38,866 nt of DNA from Anaeromyxobacter soli. Its GTDB lineage: Bacteria; Myxococcota; Myxococcia; Myxococcales; Anaeromyxobacteraceae. The notes beneath the pieces were generated by a model that saw only the letters and a program-made list of their open reading frames with translations, had not been told where the DNA came from and made no database searches. Location of the stretch: NCBI RefSeq assembly GCF_022808855.1, contig NZ_JAKZLF010000040.1, positions 1 through 38,866 of the forward strand, written 5' to 3'. This document shows, one piece after another, positions 4,084 to 36,934 of the stretch. A program made the translations under genes and the position numbers. Position 1 is the stretch's first letter. The number at the start of each line of letters is the position of its first letter.

Positions 4084-4749
4084 ATGGTGAAACCGACCAA
4101 CGCCGCCCGCTGGGCAGAGGCACTCGACGGAACCCCTTCCGCGGACATCGTGGAGCCGAACGGTGCCCAGAAGGACGCGGGCTGGGCTGCGAACCAGGCC
4201 CCGCCGGCCAGCTACTTCAACTGGTGGCAGTGGGCGGTCTACCAGTGGATCAAGTGGCTGCGCGACTCCGCGCTCGTGCTGCTGGACGCGGCGCAGACCT
4301 TCACCGCGAAGCAGACCTTCCAGGCGGGGCTCGCGACGCCGCTCGCGCCCGCGGCCGGCGACGACGTAGCGAACAAGGCGTACGTCGACGGCGGCGACTC
4401 CGCGGCGACCGCGTTCGCGGCGTCGCTGCGGCGCATCTTCGCCTGGGCCACGCTCGGCACGAGCGACGTGAACGCTGGCGCCTGCTCGGTCTACGATGGC
4501 GACGGGATCACAGCGACGAACACCGAGACGGCGATCTCGGTGACGTTCTCGACGCCCATGCCCGACACGGACTACGCCGTGCTCGTCCAGTGCGAGAACG
4601 CGTGGTTCGTCCAGCGCGTCACGAACAAGACGGTGAACGGGTTCACGATCGGCGCCGGACCGCGGTGGGACGGGTCCACGTGGGTCGCGCCGGTGCTCAC
4701 GGTCGGGTACGCGTTCTCCATCGCGGTGGTCCGGAACCCGATCGCGTAG
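4084..4749 (+). CDS. Phage tail fibre / tail-associated protein
   Basis: A 221-residue product. The N-terminal part has the short Trp-rich segment NWWQWAVYQWIKWL typical of phage tail-fibre or baseplate-linked proteins, then an ALVLLDAAQTFTAKQTFQAG segment and NKAYVDGGDSAA, the 'tail-fibre repeat' style also seen in trimerising phage fibres. The C-terminal ~110 residues are beta-rich (ETAISVTFSTPMPDTDYAVL, NKTVNGFTIGAGPRW), like a fibre head domain. Start ATG 4084 follows GAGGAG with ~8 nt spacing. It has its own upstream promoter-like repeat. After it the phage module stops abruptly and unrelated minus-strand cargo begins. Receptor-binding or virion role inferred from the family. Confidence 0.7.
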   Translation: MVKPTNAARWAEALDGTPSADIVEPNGAQKDAGWAANQAPPASYFNWWQWAVYQWIKWLRDSALVLLDAAQTFTAKQTFQAGLATPLAPAAGDDVANKAYVDGGDSAATAFAASLRRIFAWATLGTSDVNAGACSVYDGDGITATNTETAISVTFSTPMPDTDYAVLVQCENAWFVQRVTNKTVNGFTIGAGPRWDGSTWVAPVLTVGYAFSIAVVRNPIA

Positions 4750-4967: not shown

Positions 4968-6239
4968 TCACCGCCCTTCGTCGAGCCGACCAGACCACCT
5001 CAAGTAGAAGAGAAGATATGGGTTGGGCATGTCGAGGTTCTGCTCATCCCAGTCCATGACGCGGTCTTGGGGCGACTTCTCGTCCGCAATCCTCGTCATG
5101 TGGGTCAGAGTTCCGATGATACTGGACCCGCTGGGCGCATCGCCGTGGCAGAGCTGCGCCGTGCGGCGAACGACCTCGTCGTACTTGAAGGACAGCTGCG
5201 GCGGGTCCAACGCCACGGCCTTGAGGACCGCTCGATACACGTCTCCGGTCGAGCCATCGTGGAATGTGTACGTCTTCCGCTCCGTGCCGCGTGTCCTCGG
5301 GCCATCCAACAGCGCGCTCACGAGGGACCGGAAGTCCGTTACGAGGGCAGCGCGCTTGCAGATGCGGACGAGTCGCTCAGGTGACTCCGGGTATTCCGCA
5401 GTGTCGTGAAGCTCCTCTTCCACGCCGAGCTCGAAGCACGCGTTGAGGCAGATGACCTGCATCAGCTGCGGCGAGCCGGCAGATTCAGCCGCGAACCGCG
5501 CGATAGATGCATCGTCGAGCTTCACCTTCAGTTTCCCGAAGCCCACCTGCGCGATCGACATCAGGTCGCTGGGCGACCAATACGACTGATCCAACGACAA
5601 CAACCGCCCCCGGAGCTCAGGATTCGCGCGGACGACGTCGTCCGCACGGTAGGGCACGGATGCAGTAATGATACGGATGCCCGCCGCCGCGGCTTCCTTG
5701 ATCTGCCTCGCGGCGTCGCCCTGGACCGTTCGCTCGATGTAGTGGAAGTCGTCGAGGAGGACGACGAAGCTGCTTCCGGCGATCTCCTTCGCAACCTGCT
5801 GGAGTCCGCGCCGACGGTACGTCTCCTGCCGCGACCGCTCGTGCGACGCGCCCACGGACGCCGAACCCCCCGCCTCTCCTTGCGCAACGAACGGGATGCC
5901 CGCTTTCCCCTTGGCCTCGGCGCTCACCTCTCCTGAAACCCCCGTCGTTCGAGCGCGCGCCACTTCGTCGGGTACGCCCATCCAATCCAAGGCGCGGTCC
6001 CAGATTTCGTCCGCACGAGAGATTCCCGCCCCAAACACCGGGATCAGGTTCTCGCGCCCGACGACCTTCTCGATGAGAACGCTCTTGCCCGACTTCGAAG
6101 GACCGGAAACGGAGATGACCTGCTTCGGCACCTCTAGGTATTGAGCGAGCCGCTGCTCCAGCGTCTCAGCCGGACGCGCCACGTACGTGTGCGTCGGGAA
6201 GTCGTTGGGAGTGAAGACCTCAGTCGCTCGAAGCGCCAC
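4968..6239 (-). CDS. ATP-binding protein (AAA/STAND-like), putative defence ATPase
   Basis: About 423 residues. Start chosen at GTG 6239 because GGAGG lies 4-5 nt in front of it; ATG 6290 would add 17 residues but lacks a ribosome-binding site. Walker A is GPSKSGKS (about residues 46-53), Walker B is FVVLLDDFHYIE, and a sensor-like IITASVPYR follows. The rest is helical and ends in a winged-helix-like region with MPNPYLLFYLRWSG. This architecture (short N-terminal segment, single P-loop domain, C-terminal helical/wHTH part) is typical of stand-alone STAND-like ATPases in bacterial accessory regions. No effector domain is visible. Its upstream same-strand neighbour is the three-repeat small protein; base composition is lower in GC than the phage genes. 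ATPase assignment is firm, defence role inferred. Confidence 0.75.
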   Translation of the reverse strand: MALRATEVFTPNDFPTHTYVARPAETLEQRLAQYLEVPKQVISVSGPSKSGKSVLIEKVVGRENLIPVFGAGISRADEIWDRALDWMGVPDEVARARTTGVSGEVSAEAKGKAGIPFVAQGEAGGSASVGASHERSRQETYRRRGLQQVAKEIAGSSFVVLLDDFHYIERTVQGDAARQIKEAAAAGIRIITASVPYRADDVVRANPELRGRLLSLDQSYWSPSDLMSIAQVGFGKLKVKLDDASIARFAAESAGSPQLMQVICLNACFELGVEEELHDTAEYPESPERLVRICKRAALVTDFRSLVSALLDGPRTRGTERKTYTFHDGSTGDVYRAVLKAVALDPPQLSFKYDEVVRRTAQLCHGDAPSGSSIIGTLTHMTRIADEKSPQDRVMDWDEQNLDMPNPYLLFYLRWSGRLDEGR

Positions 6240-6386
6240 GTAACCTCCGGTGGAGAAGCGGCGAGGATACCGCGTTTCGCCGCGGAACATTTTCGATGGG
6301 GCGTCGTAATCCGGGCCGGGCGCGTGGCGTGATGATGACCTCTCGCCCGCGCCGTCCTTGACGTGCTCCTCCCCGTCGGGCGCCGC

Positions 6387-7421: not shown

Positions 7422-8408
7422 CTACCGAAGCGAGGAGGGCGGCTGGATTCCGCGGTCTGCGGCCGCGTCCCAGAAATCGGTCTCATGGACGATCGCGAGC
7501 GAGGCTCCGTTGCGGCGAAGCTGCATCGCCGCTTCGACCTTCCGGCCGTAGCACGAGAATGCCCACGAAAGGCTGCGCTCGGCAGCGACGATCAGGTAGT
7601 CGAGATCCTTCACGACTCGCGGATGCGGAATCCCGCCGAGTCGTGCGACGACCGATTCGATCTGCCGACGGGAGGCGCGGGGAGAGCTTCCCGTTATGCA
7701 AAATCGCTTCTCTTGGAACGTGATCTCCGGTTGCGATGCGCAGATCCCGAAGCGAATGAGTGTCTCGTCGAACGGCGTCTCGAGCACGAGATCACTCGTA
7801 GAGTCAAGGAACCCCTGAGTGAACGCCACCAGGAATTCGTGCTCCTGGGCGTCGATGCGCCTGTCAGCGAGTACGTGCGTGACGACGCTGTCGATCTCGT
7901 CATACGGCCACGTGCCCTTCAGGTTCTCCGCATTCTCGAGCCACTCGCTGAGGCCACTCAGTTCTACGTCGTTGACGACGCCATCGGCACCGATCCCCGC
8001 GAGAAGCCCGTGGAGCCGCTGCATGTCTGCGGTTGCGACCGAGTAGAACGCCGACGGACTTCTCAGCAGCTCGCAGAAATGCAGGATATCTGCGCGCTCT
8101 TCGTCGTCCAGCATGCCGTCGGAGACTGCCTCGCGGACGCGGTCACGAGCCTCGCGGAAGAGGCTGCCGTCGGGTCTGTTCCGTTCCCGTAAGCACCACC
8201 GGTTGAGAGCCATCGCCTCTGCGGCGACGATCCGTCCATCAAGAGCGATGCCGCGAATGAGCCCTTCGAGCTCGTTCACGTCTCGCTCGCGATCCTGGCG
8301 GACACTGAACTTGAGGAAGTCGCGAGAGTCGTACTTGAGGGCGTGGTCGGAGTCGTTCACGAGTCGAGCGTAGCCCCGCGGAACACGTCTGCGCTTGCCC
8401 CCGATCAT
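7422..8408 (-). CDS. TerB-like domain plus BRCT domain protein
   Basis: A 328-residue protein. Residues ~45-195 consist of repeated helical segments with acidic Asp/Gly turns (GIALDGRIVAAEAMALN, SDGMLDDEERADIL, GADGVVNDVELSGL, LADRRIDAQEHEFL), the pattern of tellurite-resistance TerB-like domains. Residues ~234-312 form a BRCT domain like that at the end of NAD-dependent DNA ligase (RFCITGSSPRASRRQIE, VVKDLDYLIVAAE, SWAFSCYGRKVEAA). Start ATG 8408; GTG 8360 is an alternative. BRCT domains bind DNA ends or phosphopeptides; TerB-like domains occur in stress and phage-response proteins. Stand-alone cargo between two cassettes. A role in DNA-damage sensing or defence is inferred. Confidence 0.7.
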   Translation of the reverse strand: MIGGKRRRVPRGYARLVNDSDHALKYDSRDFLKFSVRQDRERDVNELEGLIRGIALDGRIVAAEAMALNRWCLRERNRPDGSLFREARDRVREAVSDGMLDDEERADILHFCELLRSPSAFYSVATADMQRLHGLLAGIGADGVVNDVELSGLSEWLENAENLKGTWPYDEIDSVVTHVLADRRIDAQEHEFLVAFTQGFLDSTSDLVLETPFDETLIRFGICASQPEITFQEKRFCITGSSPRASRRQIESVVARLGGIPHPRVVKDLDYLIVAAERSLSWAFSCYGRKVEAAMQLRRNGASLAIVHETDFWDAAADRGIQPPSSLR

Positions 8409-8697: not shown

Positions 8698-8926
8698 ATG
8701 GCTAAGGGGTTCAGCGAGTTCCGGGCGGAGGCGGCGGCGTTCGTGGCGGCATACGGCCGGCGCGCCCGAGCACGTGATCGTGCGCGGCGCGGCCTTCACC
8801 GCCGTCCTCGACGGCGCCGCCCTCGCCTGGCGGGTGAACGTGGGCGGCGTGTGGGTCGGCCCCTTCACGAGCCTGGCGCTCGCGTTCGGCTGCCCCCGGG
8901 CCGCGAAGCTCGGGGAGGCAGCGTGA
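8698..8926 (+). pseudogene. Small protein upstream of recombinase (apparent frameshift)
   Basis: ATG 8698 has GGAGG at good spacing and starts MAKGFSEFRAEAAAFVAAYG, but after about 20 codons this frame turns Arg-rich. The +1 frame takes over with EHVIVRGAAFTAVLDGAALA and WRVNVGGVWVGPFTSLALAF, ending at TGA 8924-8926 in a GTGA overlap with the recombinase. Together they would give a ~76-residue protein. A single-base change near 8755-8765 is the simplest explanation. Function unknown; the coupling to the recombinase suggests a recombination accessory protein. Confidence 0.45.
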
Positions 8927-9657
8927 TCCGCGCCGTCGGCTACATCCGTGTCTCGACCGACGGCCAGGCGGAGGAGGGCGTGTCGCTCGAGGCGCAACGC
9001 GCGAAGCTGCAGGCGTTCGCCGTTGCGTCCGACCTGGGACTTGTCGCGATCCGCGAGGACGCTGGGGTGTCGGCGAAGACGCTCGCCCGGCCCGGCCTAC
9101 AGGCGGCGCTCGCAGACCTGCGCGAAGGCCGCGCCGACGCGCTGCTCGTCACGAAGCTCGACCGGCTCACCCGGTCCGTGCGCGACCTGGGGTCACTCGT
9201 GGAGGCGTACTTCGCGGCCCGCTTCTCACTCCTCTCGATCGCGGACTCCGTCGACACGCGGACCGCCGGCGGGCGGCTCGTTCTTCACGTCCTCGCGAGC
9301 GTGAGTCAGTGGGAGCGCGAGGCCATCGGCGAACGGACTCGGGACGCGCTTGCGCACCTGAAGGCAAAGGGCGTCCGAATCGGCGGCGAGGCGCTCGGGT
9401 GGCGGCGCACGACGGAGACGGACGCCGAGGGGCGACGGGTCTGGACCCCGGACCTCCAGGAGCAGGCGACCGCGCAGCGCATCCGCGAGCTGCGCGACGC
9501 GGGCCGCTCGCTGCGACACATCTGCGTGGTACTCGTCGCCGAGGGGCGCCCCACGAAACGCGGCGGCCGCTGGCAGCCGCAAACCGTCGCGCAGGTCCTG
9601 GCGCGGCACAACCCGACCCCGGCGGCGCCGGCGGTCGATCCAAGGAGAGCAGCATGA
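8923..9657 (+). CDS. Serine recombinase (resolvase/invertase family)
   Basis: A 244-residue protein from GTG 8923. Residues 1-140 are a resolvase domain: GYIRVSTDGQAEEGVSLEAQ with catalytic Ser11, the DALLVTKLDRLTRSVRDL motif and GGRLVLHVLASVSQWEREAI with the conserved Glu-Arg. A C-terminal ~95 residues (GWRRTTETDAEG... IRELRDAGRSLRHICVVLVA ... WQPQTVAQVLAR) form a short recombinase/HTH domain, far smaller than in large serine integrases. It acts on site-specific DNA exchange, probably inversion or resolution within the element, since a separate tyrosine integrase is present. Coupled to the genes before (GTGA) and after (ATGA). Confidence 0.9.
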   Translation: MIRAVGYIRVSTDGQAEEGVSLEAQRAKLQAFAVASDLGLVAIREDAGVSAKTLARPGLQAALADLREGRADALLVTKLDRLTRSVRDLGSLVEAYFAARFSLLSIADSVDTRTAGGRLVLHVLASVSQWEREAIGERTRDALAHLKAKGVRIGGEALGWRRTTETDAEGRRVWTPDLQEQATAQRIRELRDAGRSLRHICVVLVAEGRPTKRGGRWQPQTVAQVLARHNPTPAAPAVDPRRAA

Positions 9658-10455: not shown

Positions 10456-11076
10456 GTGGCGTGGGGTCTCGAGAAGTGGGCGCAGCTCGGTGATGCCGTC
10501 GGGGGGCTCGCAACCCTAGGTGGCCTCGTGTTCGCCGTCGTCAGCGTGAACCGCTGGCGCAGGGAGCGCCTCGACGAGAGGCGTGCAGAGGCCGCCGGGC
10601 GGGCGTACGTAGCGCTGAGCCGCGCGTGTGACTCGCTCGCGTTCTGGGCGGATGGTTGCGCGGCGTTCCTCGTGAGCCACCGCTCGGACCGCCCCTTTGC
10701 GGGTGAGGACTTCGCGCTATATCGGTCGCACAACGAACTGGGCCAGAGGAGCTCCCGCGAGGCGCTGAACGATCTGCGCCAGCTTGTGGAGTCCAGCTCG
10801 GTGTACCTGGACGAGCCCGAATTGAAGCTGCTGTTGGAAGCCGAGCCGATCTGGCAGGCGCTCCGCACCGATGCGGCACCGGTCGGCGCGACTGACAAGC
10901 GGCTGAGTGACCCGATCATCGACAAGATGTGCGCGCGGTTCGACGGGTACGCAGCGAATGCTCGCGCACTACTCGACCGAGGCTCCGTCCTGCGAGACGT
11001 CGGGCGGTACCGGATCGCCCGTCGATCTCGCACTCGGCGGAGCAGCGCAGCGGAACGTGAGGAGGGGATGACGTGA
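10456..11076 (+). CDS. Membrane-anchored protein, first of a tandem paralogue pair
   Basis: A 206-residue product from GTG 10456. One N-terminal membrane segment (AVGGLATLGGLVFAVVSVNR) is followed by the charged RWRRERLDERRAEAAG helix and a cytoplasmic helical domain. The next gene has the same layout and the shared motif GxVFAVxSVxRWRxExxDERR, so they are diverged duplicates. Located between the RHH gene and AbiTii protein; ends in a coupled overlap with the second paralogue (11073-11076). Unrecognised family; membrane-linked sensor or effector role in a defence cassette is inferred from context only. Confidence 0.55.
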   Translation: MAWGLEKWAQLGDAVGGLATLGGLVFAVVSVNRWRRERLDERRAEAAGRAYVALSRACDSLAFWADGCAAFLVSHRSDRPFAGEDFALYRSHNELGQRSSREALNDLRQLVESSSVYLDEPELKLLLEAEPIWQALRTDAAPVGATDKRLSDPIIDKMCARFDGYAANARALLDRGSVLRDVGRYRIARRSRTRRSSAAEREEGMT

Positions 11077-11779: not shown

Positions 11780-12709
11780 ATGCCTTCACTACTCGAGCAA
11801 CTGCAGCGGGAAGCGCTCGATTCATCCACCTCCGTCGCGAGCCTCCTTCGCAAATTGAAGGTCGCGGCCGTGATGCTCGAGAAGGAGGACGCTGTAACTT
11901 GGGTCGATCATGAGCTCAGCGGGTATCCGGAGGACGCGGAACTCCCCGCGTATCGCGTCATCAGGGGGAGGCCGCAATTCTTGAATCCGATGGTCGGGTG
12001 GTGCCCCCTCATGGTCAACGACTCCCATGGTCGCGAGCTGATGTCTAGGCACCGGGCACGGCAACGCATCTCCGAACTCGAAGAACTCGCGCGTCAGTCC
12101 GCCTCGGAAGGCGGATTGGTGGTTCCGTACCCTAGCGCCCTGATTCAGGACATCGAGCGGAGCGTTGGGTTCGAGATCGGTGGAGCCGGCGTCGCCGTCG
12201 AGAGAAGTACCGTCGTCGGGATTCTCGACGCAGTTCGCACACGCGCGCTCGATTGGGCTCTCGCACTGTGGAGGGCCGGCGTGCGGGGTGAGGAATCAGG
12301 GTCGTTCTCACGCGGCGACCGAGAGGCCGCGTCGACCGTGATGTACAACGTCGTAGTCGGCGGGCCCTTCACTGGCAACGTCGGGTCGGTAAGCGGCGGC
12401 GCGACGGTTCATGCGACGCATGTCGGCCCCGCAACCGTCGAAACCCTTACGCAGCTCGCCAGCCAGATCGAACAGCACGCGGGCGAGATGAGCTTGTCCG
12501 AACCGGAACGTGGACGGCTCGAGCGCGACGTCGCTGAACTGCGCCAAGAGATCAGGCGGCCGGCGCCCGATGTCTCCGTGCTCGGGCGCGTTCTCAGCAG
12601 CATCCGTGCGATCGCGGAGAACGCGGCGGGCGGTCTTATCGCCTCCGGGATTCTGCACGTGATGGCGAGACCGGAGATCGCCGCGCTGATCCAGCGCGTC
12701 GGGCAGTAA
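11780..12709 (+). CDS. AbiTii-family protein (abortive-infection domain)
   Basis: A 309-residue protein. The N-terminal ~50 residues LLEQLQREALDSSTSVASLL then RKLKVAAVMLEKEDAVTWVDHELSGY match the AbiTii domain, known from abortive-infection and other phage-resistance loci. Residues ~195-215 contain a VVVGGPFTGNVGSVSGGATV beta-turn segment frequent in this family, then a helical C-terminus and a hydrophobic end segment (AAGGLIASGILHVM). ATG 11780 follows GGGGA. It ends the RHH-paralogue pair-AbiTii series; the two membrane-anchored paralogues upstream are likely functional partners. The family is recognised; the mechanism is unknown. Confidence 0.75.
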   Translation: MPSLLEQLQREALDSSTSVASLLRKLKVAAVMLEKEDAVTWVDHELSGYPEDAELPAYRVIRGRPQFLNPMVGWCPLMVNDSHGRELMSRHRARQRISELEELARQSASEGGLVVPYPSALIQDIERSVGFEIGGAGVAVERSTVVGILDAVRTRALDWALALWRAGVRGEESGSFSRGDREAASTVMYNVVVGGPFTGNVGSVSGGATVHATHVGPATVETLTQLASQIEQHAGEMSLSEPERGRLERDVAELRQEIRRPAPDVSVLGRVLSSIRAIAENAAGGLIASGILHVMARPEIAALIQRVGQ

Positions 12710-13624: not shown

Positions 13625-13827
13625 TCGCCCTCCCGATCGACCCGCGCGCGCTGACGGCTCACGGTCTGACGCCGCGGGACCTTACGCACGCGCCCCCCGG
13701 CACCGTGGTCATCGTTCTCGACGGGACCGCGCTGCGCGTCACCGCCGAGGGCGCGCTGGATCCCGTAGTCTCGTTCGGCTTCCGGTCGATCGCCAGCGAC
13801 CCGGCGGCGTCGCGGAGGGCAGCATGA
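13621..13827 (+). CDS. Small ORF between repressor and excisionase
   Basis: A 68-residue product coupled on both sides by 4-nt overlaps (GTGA, ATGA). A short beta-rich stretch GTVVIVLDGTALRVTAEG stands out. No family recognised. The tight coupling supports translation. Confidence 0.45.
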   Translation: MIALPIDPRALTAHGLTPRDLTHAPPGTVVIVLDGTALRVTAEGALDPVVSFGFRSIASDPAASRRAA

Positions 13828-14207
13828 GCCCCGAGGCCGTGCTCGGTCCATCCCTAGCAGGAGCCGTGCGCGAGATCGTGCGCCAGGAGCTCGCCGCGCG
13901 CGGCGCCGCGGCTCCGACGTCGCCGGCGACGCCGGAGCTGATCTCGCCGGAGGAGGCGGCGCGCCGGTTCAAGGGGCGGCCCTCCGCGGACACGATCCGG
14001 AGTCTCATCCATCGCGGCCTCGTCAAACGTCGTGTCGTCAGCGAGGTCCGAGACGGGGGGCGTCCGAGCTACCTCGTGACCGTCGACGAGGTCCTCGTCG
14101 CGCTCGAGGCGAGCGGCAAGGCGGCGTCGGAGACCGAGCCGGTGGACCTCGAGGCCGCCCGGGCCCGAGCGCGCGAGCGCGCGGGGAAGACGAGGGGAGG
14201 GCGGTAG
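13824..14207 (+). CDS. Excisionase-like helix-turn-helix protein
   Basis: A 127-residue product from ATG 13824. After a helical N-terminus (AGAVREIVRQELAARGAAAP), a winged-HTH stretch ISPEEAARRFKGRPSADTIR then HRGLVKRRVV and SYLVTVDEVLVALEA follows the pattern of MerR-like/excisionase DNA-binding domains. The C-terminal helix is charged. Two bases separate it from the integrase, so it is the likely directionality factor. Family resemblance, not a definite match. Confidence 0.6.
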   Translation: MSPEAVLGPSLAGAVREIVRQELAARGAAAPTSPATPELISPEEAARRFKGRPSADTIRSLIHRGLVKRRVVSEVRDGGRPSYLVTVDEVLVALEASGKAASETEPVDLEAARARARERAGKTRGGR

Positions 14208-14209
14208 CG

Positions 14210-15485
14210 ATGGCGTGGCTCAGGAAGCGCGGCCGCGTGTTCTACGTCGAGTTCATCGTCCGCGGCCGGAAGCACCCGAAGCGCGTGAGTACGGGCACGG
14301 CGAGGCGGCGCGAGGCGGAGGCGTTCCTCGAGGAATGGGAGCGCATCCACCCCGCCGGCGAAAACGTCGCGCGCGCCCCGAGCGCGCCCACCGTCGAGAG
14401 CTGGGGCCGGGACTGGAACGACGCGCGGAAGGCGCGCGAGATCCTCGACTGGGTCCACGAGCTCGGGCACCTCGAGAACCACGTCTTCCCCGAGCTCGGC
14501 GCGCTTCGGCTGACCGAGGTGACGAAGGCCCGGATGCTCGCGTGGATCGCGGACCTCGCGAAGAAGCGCGGGCGCTACGGGGAGCGCATCGCGCCGGCGA
14601 GCGTGCGGAAGGTCGCCGCCACGTGCCGGGCGCTGTTCCGCGAGGCCGCGAAACGGGACCTCATCCCGGTGACCCCGTGCGTGTGGACCCGCGGGGACTT
14701 CCCGCGGAGCGTGACCGTGTCGCGCACGCGCGAGGGCGGGCTCACCGCGGACCAAGTCGGGCTGCTCATCGGCGACCCGACCATCCCCGAGGACAGGCGC
14801 GTTCTGTACGCGCTCGAGATCCTCACCGGCATGAGAACCGGCGAGGCCGCCGCGCGGCGCTGGCGCGACTGGGATCCGGCATTCCAGGGCGACCTCGGCC
14901 GGCTCGTCGTCGGCACCTCGTACAATACGCGCCACGCGATCGAGAAGACGACGAAGACGGACATCGAGAAGTGGGTTCCCGTGCATCCCGTGCTCGCCGA
15001 GCTGCTGCGGCTCTGGAGGGCCGCCGGCTGGGCGAGGATGTTCGGCCGCGCGCCCGGGCCGGAGGACCTCATCGTGCCGGCCGCGAAGGGCGGGCCGCGG
15101 AATAACGGCATGTCGCACCGCCTGTGGTGGGCGGACCTGAAGGCGCTCGAGCTGCCGCGCCAGCGGCACTACCAGACGCGCGCCACGTTCCGCTCGCTCG
15201 CGCTCGCCGGCGGCGCGGTCGAGAAGGACCTCGACCGGATCACGCATCCGAGCCCGAAGACCGCGAGCGACGTCTACGACCGTCCGGCGCTCCTCTGGCC
15301 TCGCCTCTGCGCTGCCGTCCGGTGCATCGTGGTGGAGCCGCGCAGCGCCGCCGCCGCGCCCGGGCGGCTGCTGGTCGTCGCGGGCGGGAACGGGTACAGC
15401 GAGACGGGTACACCGCCGGAGCCGGACGACGGCGGATCGCCGAAAGTGCCAGGCGACGCGCGGGGTTCGGCCGACTCGGGATTGA
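14210..15485 (+). CDS. int: Tyrosine-family integrase, frame open into tRNA-Sec and beyond
   Basis: Begins at ATG 14210. N-terminal arm-binding region (FYVEFIVRGRKHPKRVSTGT), central core-binding helices, then the catalytic domain: box I TGMRTGEAAARRW (Arg209), box II HYQTRATFRSL (His320, Arg324), THPSPKTASDVYDRP with His346 and the nucleophile Tyr356. All catalytic positions are present. Normal integrases stop about 20-30 residues after the Tyr; here no in-frame stop occurs before the tRNA-Sec gene at 15486. The frame reads antisense through the tRNA (AEQGNRTPQQ) and on to 17590 in host DNA. The end given here is the element boundary, not a stop codon. Its attachment site is evidently the tRNA 3' end. 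Confidence 0.85.
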
Positions 15486-15581
15486 CGGCAGAGCAGGGGA
15501 ATCGAACCCCCCAACAGCGCCTCTCAGCACCATCCACCGGTTTTGAAGACCGGGCCCGGCACCAGCCTAGGACGCTCTGCC
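15486..15581 (-). tRNA. selC: tRNA-Sec (anticodon UCA)
   Basis: A 96-nt tRNA with an 8-bp acceptor stem (GGCAGAGC at the 5' end, GCTCTGCC at the 3' end, discriminator G, no encoded CCA), anticodon TCA (complement of 15544-15546) in a CTTCAAA loop, a long extra arm and a GGTTCGATTCC T-arm. The 8-bp acceptor and long variable arm are typical of selenocysteine tRNA. The 3' end directly abuts the integrase end of the element, so this is the attachment site and it has been kept intact. Confidence 0.93.
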
Positions 15582-15590
15582 GCGCAAGGG

Positions 15591-15617
15591 TTTATGCGCA
15601 GCGCCCGGCACCGTCAA
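15591..15617 (-). promoter_or_regulatory. Promoter of the tRNA-Sec gene
   Basis: On the minus strand TTGACG (15617-15612), 15 bp, CATAAA (15596-15591), or ATAAAC with 16 bp. It would start transcription a few bases before the tRNA 5' end. Confidence 0.55.
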
Positions 15618-15682
15618 GCGGCGGCACCGCGGCGAAGCGCGCGGGCGCCGCGGAGCATGAGGCCTCTGTCCCGCGAGCGGGC

Positions 15683-17335
15683 CTACTTCGACGCCTTGGA
15701 CACGCGCGACGGGCGGTCGCCGGCGAGGGGCGCGCCGTGCTCGTCGCCCCAGGGCGACAGGCGGGTCGCGGCGGTGCGCTCGTGCGGCATCGCGGCGCGC
15801 GGCGAGCGGAAGTACTGCATCGGCGAGTAGAAGACCAGGTTCGACGCGCGGCTCGTGTAGATGCACGCGTAGTTCTCGATCTGCTCGGCGAAGCGGGAGT
15901 TCTCGTGGCCCTCCTTGAAGGTGAGCCCCCAGTACGGGTTGAAGCCCTCCTCGACCGCGCGCTCCAGCTCGCGCACGCGATCGTCCGCGTCCCGGCGCGC
16001 GCGGCGGAGCACCTCGAGCTCGGCCTTGTCGCGCCGCCGCGTCGCCTCGAGCCGCTCGCGCTCCGCAGGATCGCCCACGCGATCGAGGCGCCGGTCGAGC
16101 GCGTTCAGGGCCGAGCGGTGCACCGCGACCTCGTCCTCGATGCGGACGCGCAGGGCCTCGAGCCGCGCCATCTCGGCGAGCGCGTCCTGGTTCTTCTCGA
16201 GCCAGGCGAGCTCGGCCTCGAGCTCCTCGACGACCATGCAGGTGCGCCAGAGGGAGCTCTTCTTCGAGCGCAGGATGTCGCCGTAGATGTGGTCACCGAC
16301 GTAGAGGATCCGGTCCCCGCCGATGCCGATGAGCCGCTCCAGCGTGGGGAGATCGCCCCCCTCGTACCAGCGACCGCGCTCGATGGAGGTCGCCTCGCCG
16401 GCGCGCGCGCCGTCCGGCGCGAGCGCGTACAGCGGCCGGCGCTCGGAGAAGAAGGCGGGCTTCGCCGCGCCGGTCACCACCGCGTCGAAGTAGTTCCGCC
16501 AGCTCGGGTACTCGGGGAGGACGTCGTCGAGGACGTAGGACATCACGGCGTCGGTGTAGTCCCAGAGCGAGTTCGTGAGGAGGAAGAGCTTCTTCCCGCC
16601 GGAGCGGAGCTTGTGGAGCGCGGGGCCGAGCTCGGGGTCCTTCACGAGGTAGCGCGGGAGGTCCTTCTTCACCTCCGCCTTGAGCGTGCCGTCGCGGTGC
16701 ACCGTGTCGATGGACTCGCGGATGTCCTGCCAGAGCTTCTCGTAGTCGATCGTCTGCCCCTCGCCCTCCAGGTGCTCGATGATCCCGGCGAACAGGCTCG
16801 CCTCGGGCAGCGCGAAGAGCGTGTCGATCCAGGCGAAGCGCGGGGAGGAGAGGTGGACCTTCTCGTCGCGGTAGAGGCGGCGGAGCTCCTCGTGTGGCAG
16901 GGGGCGGCGCCCGTGGTAGCAGCGGCCCACGTGGTTGTGCCGGTCCATCTTGAAGATGTTGCCGTGCAGCTTGTCCATCACGAGCCCGCGGATGACGAAG
17001 GCGGGGTCGTACTGGAGGACGCCGAGCTGCTGCGGGTAGCCGCGCGCGGAGATCATGCGCGCGAGCGTCATCCCGAACGCGAGCTCCTCGAGCCGCTGCA
17101 GGTGGTACATCGCGAGCGTGTAGTCCATGTCGAAGCCGACGGCCTCGATCTTGTCCATCCGGAGGTTCCGGTTGACGAAGACCTGGCGTGCGCGCGGCAC
17201 CTCGCGGTGACCGACGTGCGGCGTGGTGAGCAGCGACAGGAGCTCGGGCGCCTCGTACGCGCGCCCTGCGGTCGGTGTGGCGGGCGCGGCGTGCCCGACG
17301 GCGCCGGCCGGGACGCCCCCTCTGGCGGTTGGCAT
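15683..17335 (-). CDS. HAD-IG family 5'-nucleotidase (purine nucleotidase type)
   Basis: A 550-residue protein from ATG 17335 (a TTG at 17374 is the only earlier option). The HAD signature VGFDMDYTLAMYHLQRL gives the two catalytic Asp. Further segments (FVIRGLVMDKLHGNIFKMDR, LFLLTNSLWDYTDAVMSYVL, RILYVGDHIYGDILRSKKSS) follow the order of the HAD superfamily subgroup related to cytosolic purine 5'-nucleotidase NT5C2, which dephosphorylates IMP and GMP. The C-terminal third has a charged coiled region (EKNQDALAEMARLEALRVRI). Length fits the family. It reads toward tRNA-Sec and is the first full chromosomal gene beyond the element. Confidence 0.85.
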   Translation of the reverse strand: MPTARGGVPAGAVGHAAPATPTAGRAYEAPELLSLLTTPHVGHREVPRARQVFVNRNLRMDKIEAVGFDMDYTLAMYHLQRLEELAFGMTLARMISARGYPQQLGVLQYDPAFVIRGLVMDKLHGNIFKMDRHNHVGRCYHGRRPLPHEELRRLYRDEKVHLSSPRFAWIDTLFALPEASLFAGIIEHLEGEGQTIDYEKLWQDIRESIDTVHRDGTLKAEVKKDLPRYLVKDPELGPALHKLRSGGKKLFLLTNSLWDYTDAVMSYVLDDVLPEYPSWRNYFDAVVTGAAKPAFFSERRPLYALAPDGARAGEATSIERGRWYEGGDLPTLERLIGIGGDRILYVGDHIYGDILRSKKSSLWRTCMVVEELEAELAWLEKNQDALAEMARLEALRVRIEDEVAVHRSALNALDRRLDRVGDPAERERLEATRRRDKAELEVLRRARRDADDRVRELERAVEEGFNPYWGLTFKEGHENSRFAEQIENYACIYTSRASNLVFYSPMQYFRSPRAAMPHERTAATRLSPWGDEHGAPLAGDRPSRVSKASK

Positions 17336-17472
17336 GTCAGAGGCCGTGATAACCCGCCCGGCGCACCGGCTCAACGATCGTGCGGGCGGATGCTCGCGGC
17401 GCCGAGGCGGCGGGCGGCAGGCCCGCCGGGAAAGTTGACCGGGGTGGCGTGCGTGGCACGCTCGCGCACACC

Positions 17473-17691
17473 GTGCCGAGGCGCCTCACCCTCACCGAGC
17501 TCGCCGCCCGCATCGAGCAGCTCGAGGATCGCATCGCCCGGCTCGAGGCCGGACGCGCTCCCCCGGGCGATGGTCGCGCCGCGCGCGTGAAGCGCACCCG
17601 CGAGGTGAAGCGCTGCCCGGGCTGCGGCCTCCCGCTGCGGCGGCGCGCCGGGCGCTGCGCGAGCTGCGGGCGGCCGCTCGACTCGCTCTAG
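17473..17691 (+). CDS. Small zinc-ribbon protein
   Basis: About 72 residues from GTG 17473 (an upstream GTG is possible). An N-terminal helical segment (LTLTELAARIEQLEDRIARL) is followed by CPGCGLPLRRRAGRCASCGR, two CxxC pairs of a zinc ribbon. Divergent in direction from the HAD gene. Unknown function, possibly nucleic-acid binding. Confidence 0.5.
   Translation: MPRRLTLTELAARIEQLEDRIARLEAGRAPPGDGRAARVKRTREVKRCPGCGLPLRRRAGRCASCGRPLDSL

Positions 17692-35167: not shown

Positions 35168-36934
<1,767 letters not shown>

Follow-up and report, generated by a model that had tools for sequence, protein, structure and literature searches.

The attachment site attP of phage Mx8 lies in int, the integrase gene, and integration gives int a new 3' end, with the activity of the enzyme changed, not abolished (PMC6070905). 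A recombination site within the integrase gene is also found in the archaeal SSV-type 'suicidal' integrases, in which the catalytic part is split off and the enzyme is lost (PMC8371274). In the integration-dependent immunity of BPs, attP likewise lies within a coding sequence and integration changes the C-terminus of the product, there a repressor, whose viral form carries an ssrA-like degradation tag (PMC4557955).

The locus described here is located in a stretch of 38,866 nucleotides of the Anaeromyxobacter soli genome, further called the window, and its arrangement is that of Mx8 and Mx9, with attP inside int. The first interpretation of this DNA, made from the letters alone (the sequence-only reading), had proposed the class of systems in which the attachment site lies within a phage gene and integration alters its product; the class was right and its closest case is the Mx8 integrase, which is also the best match among isolated-phage records (35% identity over 74%, E 7e-28). 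With the Mx8 Int/IntX system (PMC6070905; D86464, NC_003085) the locus shares a homologous integrase with attP inside int, a core resembling the 3' part of a tRNA and situated in the int frame ~50 codons after the catalytic domain, ~100 tail codons beyond it, a small HTH-like gene just upstream of int, and paired repeats flanking the core. It differs from Mx8 in its tRNA-Sec target, in size (an element of ~16 kb versus a phage of 49.5 kb), in a different tail, in the accidental host extension of 694 residues, in an upstream gene with no significant BLASTP match to Uoi (E 0.098), and in that the element is known from its sequence alone. A suicidal integrase of the SSV type, in which integration parts the catalytic domain from the N-terminal portion, was ruled out, since every catalytic residue is encoded ahead of the core; the tail alone would be exchanged, with the catalytic domain remaining in one piece.

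The integrase frame and the two ends of the element

In the ORF listing of the window the int frame (14210-17590, plus strand) is open for 1126 codons; it has no stop inside the element, including the stretch between the catalytic part and the attachment site, and reads tRNA-Sec and the adjoining 5'-nucleotidase gene antisense, exactly as the sequence-only reading had described it, with Tyr356 indeed a catalytic residue. The element-encoded part (Table 1) matches the PHROG_1 integrase profile (E 2.5e-33) and is 33-47% identical to Mx8 Int and three congeners in the family alignment. Arg209, Lys249, Arg324, His346, and Tyr356 are invariant in that alignment, while the HxxR box has Tyr in place of the first His, with a His adjacent; the conservation of the catalytic domain reaches only to ~residue 376. 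A search for terminator-like sites between int and selC gave none. The tRNA-Sec gene (selC) is the attB target, restored by the element, and locus comparison showed the 5'-nucleotidase gene to be kept beside it in congeners.

The core is a 22-bp copy of the 3' end of tRNA-Sec. No second copy is present within the window, which is the entire contig C35, the element running off its end. The attachment-region search gave one strong second match in the same genome, on contig C37, identical over all 22 bp and in the same orientation. To the left of this copy, C37:20000-26163 shows synteny with the left-hand selC flank of four congeners (G001, G002, G003, and G005), while to the right there are 641 bp of the element, core included, and then the contig ends. 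The two ends of the element thus sit on separate contigs without sequence overlap, and the break probably arose because an ORF crosses a proline-rich stretch there. The C37 part of this presumably split gene has weak PHROG replication matches; if the ORF at the C37 end continues at position 2 of the window, the element would be ~16.1 kb long plus a small gap. Judging by the sequence, an integrated element of ~16 kb has its attR end in the window, and its int contains its own attachment site.

Table 1. Features of the window (positions are those of the window unless a contig is given)
Feature	Position	Strand	Remarks
Probable continuation of the replication-initiator-like gene begun on C37	2..490	+	frames at two contig ends; break in proline-rich repeat
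Small putative HTH gene, possible excisionase	13824..14207	+	2 bp upstream of int; position of Mx8 uoi
int, element-encoded part	14210..15484	+	core-binding and catalytic domains (to ~residue 376), low-complexity linker
P-arm repeat 1, ACGGGTACA, putative integrase arm site	15390..15398	+	inside int
P-arm repeat 2, ACGGGTACA, putative integrase arm site	15404..15412	+	inside int
attR core, 22 bp, ACGGCAGAGCAGGGGAATCGAA	15485..15506	+	inside int frame; exact copy at G000:C37:35834-35855
tRNA-Sec (selC)	15486-15581	-	ARAGORN; Rfam RF01852, 75.4 bits
Host-encoded extension of int frame, integrated state	15507..17590	+	accidental antisense frame
HAD-type 5'-nucleotidase, host gene adjoining selC	15683-17374	-	PF05761, E 7e-163

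Circular forms and related elements in Myxococcia

The circular form was built in silico by joining 14210-15484 of the window to C37 from position 35834 onward, the expected junction being ...GACTCGGGATTG-ACGGCAGAGCAGGGGAATCGAA-GGCGCGAGGGCAC... In the reconstructed circle int stays in frame for 95 more codons and then meets a TGA, giving an integrase of 520 residues whose last 95 codons are the far end of the element; the earlier suggestion that the circle completes the integrase from the other end of the element is borne out by this junction. The core lies inside the int frame at both of its copies, and the stop of the circular int overlaps a TTG, a possible start of the gene weakly resembling a replication initiator. 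It had also been suggested that the stability of the integrase could be controlled, with a degradation tag as the thing to compare, and this is not supported, as inspection by eye of the reconstructed circular-form integrases revealed no degron-like C-terminus shared among them. Immunity of the BPs type was rejected as a model for the same reason and because attP lies here in int, not in a repressor gene.

Of the 147 genomes of the class that were surveyed, 35 carry Mx8-type integrases. Three congeneric elements could be mapped at both ends in two complete genomes, one at tRNA-Sec (12,797 bp) and one at tRNA-Val (12,326 bp) in G002, and one at tRNA-Val (11,615 bp) in G001; eight more, at tRNA-Asp, tRNA-Glu, and presumed tmRNA sites, bring the set to 12 with that of the window. 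No convincing second core was found in G006, G036, G137, G017, G052, G027, and others, mostly on short contigs, and these stand outside the 12. The int frame crosses the core in all 12 mapped elements and in each reconstructed circle it stays open and coding, for 82-128 codons if the count begins with the core; when integrated, the other 11 have it open for 9-42 codons from the same point. The element at selC of G002 is among them: in the integrated state its int leaves in a different frame from that of the window, with a stop after 20 codons.

The arrangement is not obligatory for the integrase family, because six relatives stop before any attachment site. Three of these are among the 31 chromosomal relatives adjacent to a tRNA or tmRNA-like site, the other 28 running into the site, and three are viral contigs (L123, L124, and L128) with an early stop in int. 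An early stop at the same place in related intact elements, named by the sequence-only reading as an observation that would speak against it, is absent from the 12 elements with two mapped ends but does occur in the family. Integrases with a stop of their own are scattered in the tree of 39 integrases (four changes, at least three of them forced by well-supported branches), which means that they do not form one clade. In two free viral contigs, L126 and L127, int includes a T-loop-like core and there is no tRNA, a layout as expected of the free phage form. Matches in the search for viral contigs were obtained with an alignment as the query, a single protein having given none.

Some further loci are of note. 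In L120 (G008:C68:16001-36000, reverse strand) two copies of the same selC core, at 11002 and 19123, lie 8.1 kb apart; the stretch, which contains transposase-like ORFs, belongs to a genome without an Mx8-type integrase and probably represents the remains of an element that used this site. L067 (G032), from another genus, has an interrupted Mx8-type integrase beside tRNA-Sec, apparently a third, decayed selC element. In L069 (G026), with no tRNA nearby, a T-loop-like core lies in the int frame and the long tail ends in an excisionase-like HTH sequence; this may be a free form to which a regulator has been fused.

The element-encoded and the host-encoded tail

It is conceivable that the integrase is complete by ~residue 376, its frame overlapping the attachment site owing to their proximity and to the scarcity of stops in GC-rich DNA, and that neither tail matters. 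The limit of conservation of the catalytic domain and the six relatives mentioned above are in keeping with this, as is the length that GC-rich frames reach by chance, since some elements have, beyond the core, another frame that is just as open. However, in a frame test comprising 13 cases, the 12 elements and Mx8, the int frame was open beyond the core for 73-117 codons in every case, with means of 28 and 37 codons for the two alternative frames (Wilcoxon p = 0.0001), whatever the phase of the core; this phase relative to int varies among the elements, so it is not the sequence of the core that dictates the int frame. The pooled G+C content of the tails at the three codon positions (0.77/0.60/0.79) is coding-like, the Int annotated in Mx8 (D86464) includes its own tail, and the tails are homologous within groups, one comprising Mx8 with G068 and G070 (z 13-16), another the presumed tmRNA group, and a third an Anaeromyxobacter-like group; that of the window is weakly similar to one other tail only, from G070 (z 4.6). 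Irrelevance of both tails is in consequence considered unlikely, and there is evidence in these sequences suggesting that the tail is under selection across the Mx8-type elements.

The AlphaFold model of full-length Mx8 Int (mean pLDDT 68, tail ~50-69) has a catalytic domain folded to ~residue 367, an unstructured segment of residues 375-484, which includes the position of the core (~411-421), and then helices of modest confidence. The core falls in an unstructured linker in this model; the catalytic domain would not be broken by an exchange there.

Paired repeats, inverted between the arms and embedded in coding sequence, flank the core and resemble arm sites of the integrase. ACGGGTACA is present in two copies in direct order in the P arm and in two inverted copies in the P' arm (C37:35975-35991), the latter inside the tail of the circular-form int, all four copies lying within the circular gene. 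The observed paired-repeat score was reached by none of 200 shuffles in the window, in G082b, and in G038 each, and in a looser test of the window repeats by 20 of 5000. G082b and G038 show the same layout with different sequences, one arm having a spaced pair and the opposite arm an inverted pair with 8 bp between its members; it is less clear in G101 and others, and three elements examined have no paired inverted repeat pattern.

The explanation that we regard, as a whole, as very probable is an element with attP inside int, whose tail is exchanged on integration, with a regulation resembling that of Mx8. In the circle int would run through the 22-bp core and give 520 residues, comprising the catalytic domain, a core-carrying flexible linker, and the element-encoded tail, whose DNA also carries the P'-arm repeats. 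Integration into selC would cut int at the core, with the catalytic domain kept intact and the tail replaced by whatever the host locus encodes antisense; the replication-like gene next after int in the circle would then no longer follow it. The phage form of Mx8 Int reportedly favours integration. By analogy, the tailed form would favour integration and the tail-swapped form would be altered in activity, the product of the reaction modifying its own enzyme, reversibly on excision; it is from Mx8 that we infer regulation by tail exchange in the element of the window.

The unusual length of the host-encoded tail, 694 residues beyond the core or 701 codons counted from the core start, is accidental, because the codons that give an antisense stop are rare in the host genes and the nearest relative has no long frame. 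TTA, CTA, and TCA are the only such codons in this register; the nucleotidase frame contains none of them, they make up 12 of the 19,769 codons of local host genes, and a gene of 563 codons would be free of them with a probability of ~0.71. In six of seven congeners the frame of the window, followed through selC, ends 92-172 codons past the T-loop, in the nearest, L078, whose locus is 94% identical, after 139 codons; only at the selC locus of G001 does it stay open to the end of the locus, for at least 527 codons. A functional read-through of 1126 residues, in which the host-encoded 694 would have a regulatory role in the lysogen or act there as a fusion domain, could be read from the frame being open over its whole length and from that of G001, but the closures in the other six congeners, the expected openness, and the different frame in which int of the G002 selC element leaves make it very improbable. 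The sequence-only reading was correct in seeing the long host part as helped by GC-rich bias and the missing stop as real, the frame crossing the core in each of the mapped elements. That a sequencing or assembly error, or decay, introduced a frameshift just after Tyr356 and removed a genuine nearby stop is hardly credible in spite of the window being a draft contig and some relatives stopping just after the conserved LCRAV helix, given the same open frame in independent single-contig genomes (G001, G002, G068, G023, and G101) and the coding-like tail in which the circular form ends.

An attP site inside int, as in Mx8 and Mx9, could pass for an oddity of two phages. Several families are now seen to have it, in 12 mapped elements that occupy various tRNA genes and presumed tmRNA sites, and there is evidence that the Mx8-type arrangement is widespread in myxobacterial relatives. 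These elements, together with the apparent selection on the tail and the embedded arm-type repeats, make the class testable comparatively. More tentatively, the exchangeable tail may be a conserved regulatory module across Myxococcia, in which the tail, the P'-arm sites, and a replication-type gene are coupled in the circle, and integration would switch the direction of the integrase and uncouple the replication genes; if this is true, Mx8 would be no special case but one instance of a general self-recording switch that works in one step. For annotation it should be kept in mind that prophage integrases of this group have C-termini made of host sequence, and that only the excised form reveals the true protein.

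Neighbouring genes and probable cargo

The putative HTH gene preceding int has a MerR-like match (PHROG_2474, E 0.0025). A tail-fibre-like gene (4084-4749; PHROG_2126, E 5e-8) is present in the window, and a scan of a few other genes revealed no further phage structural gene, so a prophage remnant or a satellite may be what the element is. Apart from the tyrosine integrase, the same element encodes a serine recombinase with a resolvase and a recombinase domain (8698-9657). Upstream of the integrase region lies an AbiTii-domain gene (11780-12709; PF18864, E 5e-42), likely anti-phage cargo of the element. Two minus-strand genes, 4968-6290 and 7422-8408, whose products are ATPase-like in one case and weakly BRCT-matching in the other, are located in a lower-(G+C) stretch and possibly represent more cargo or defence.
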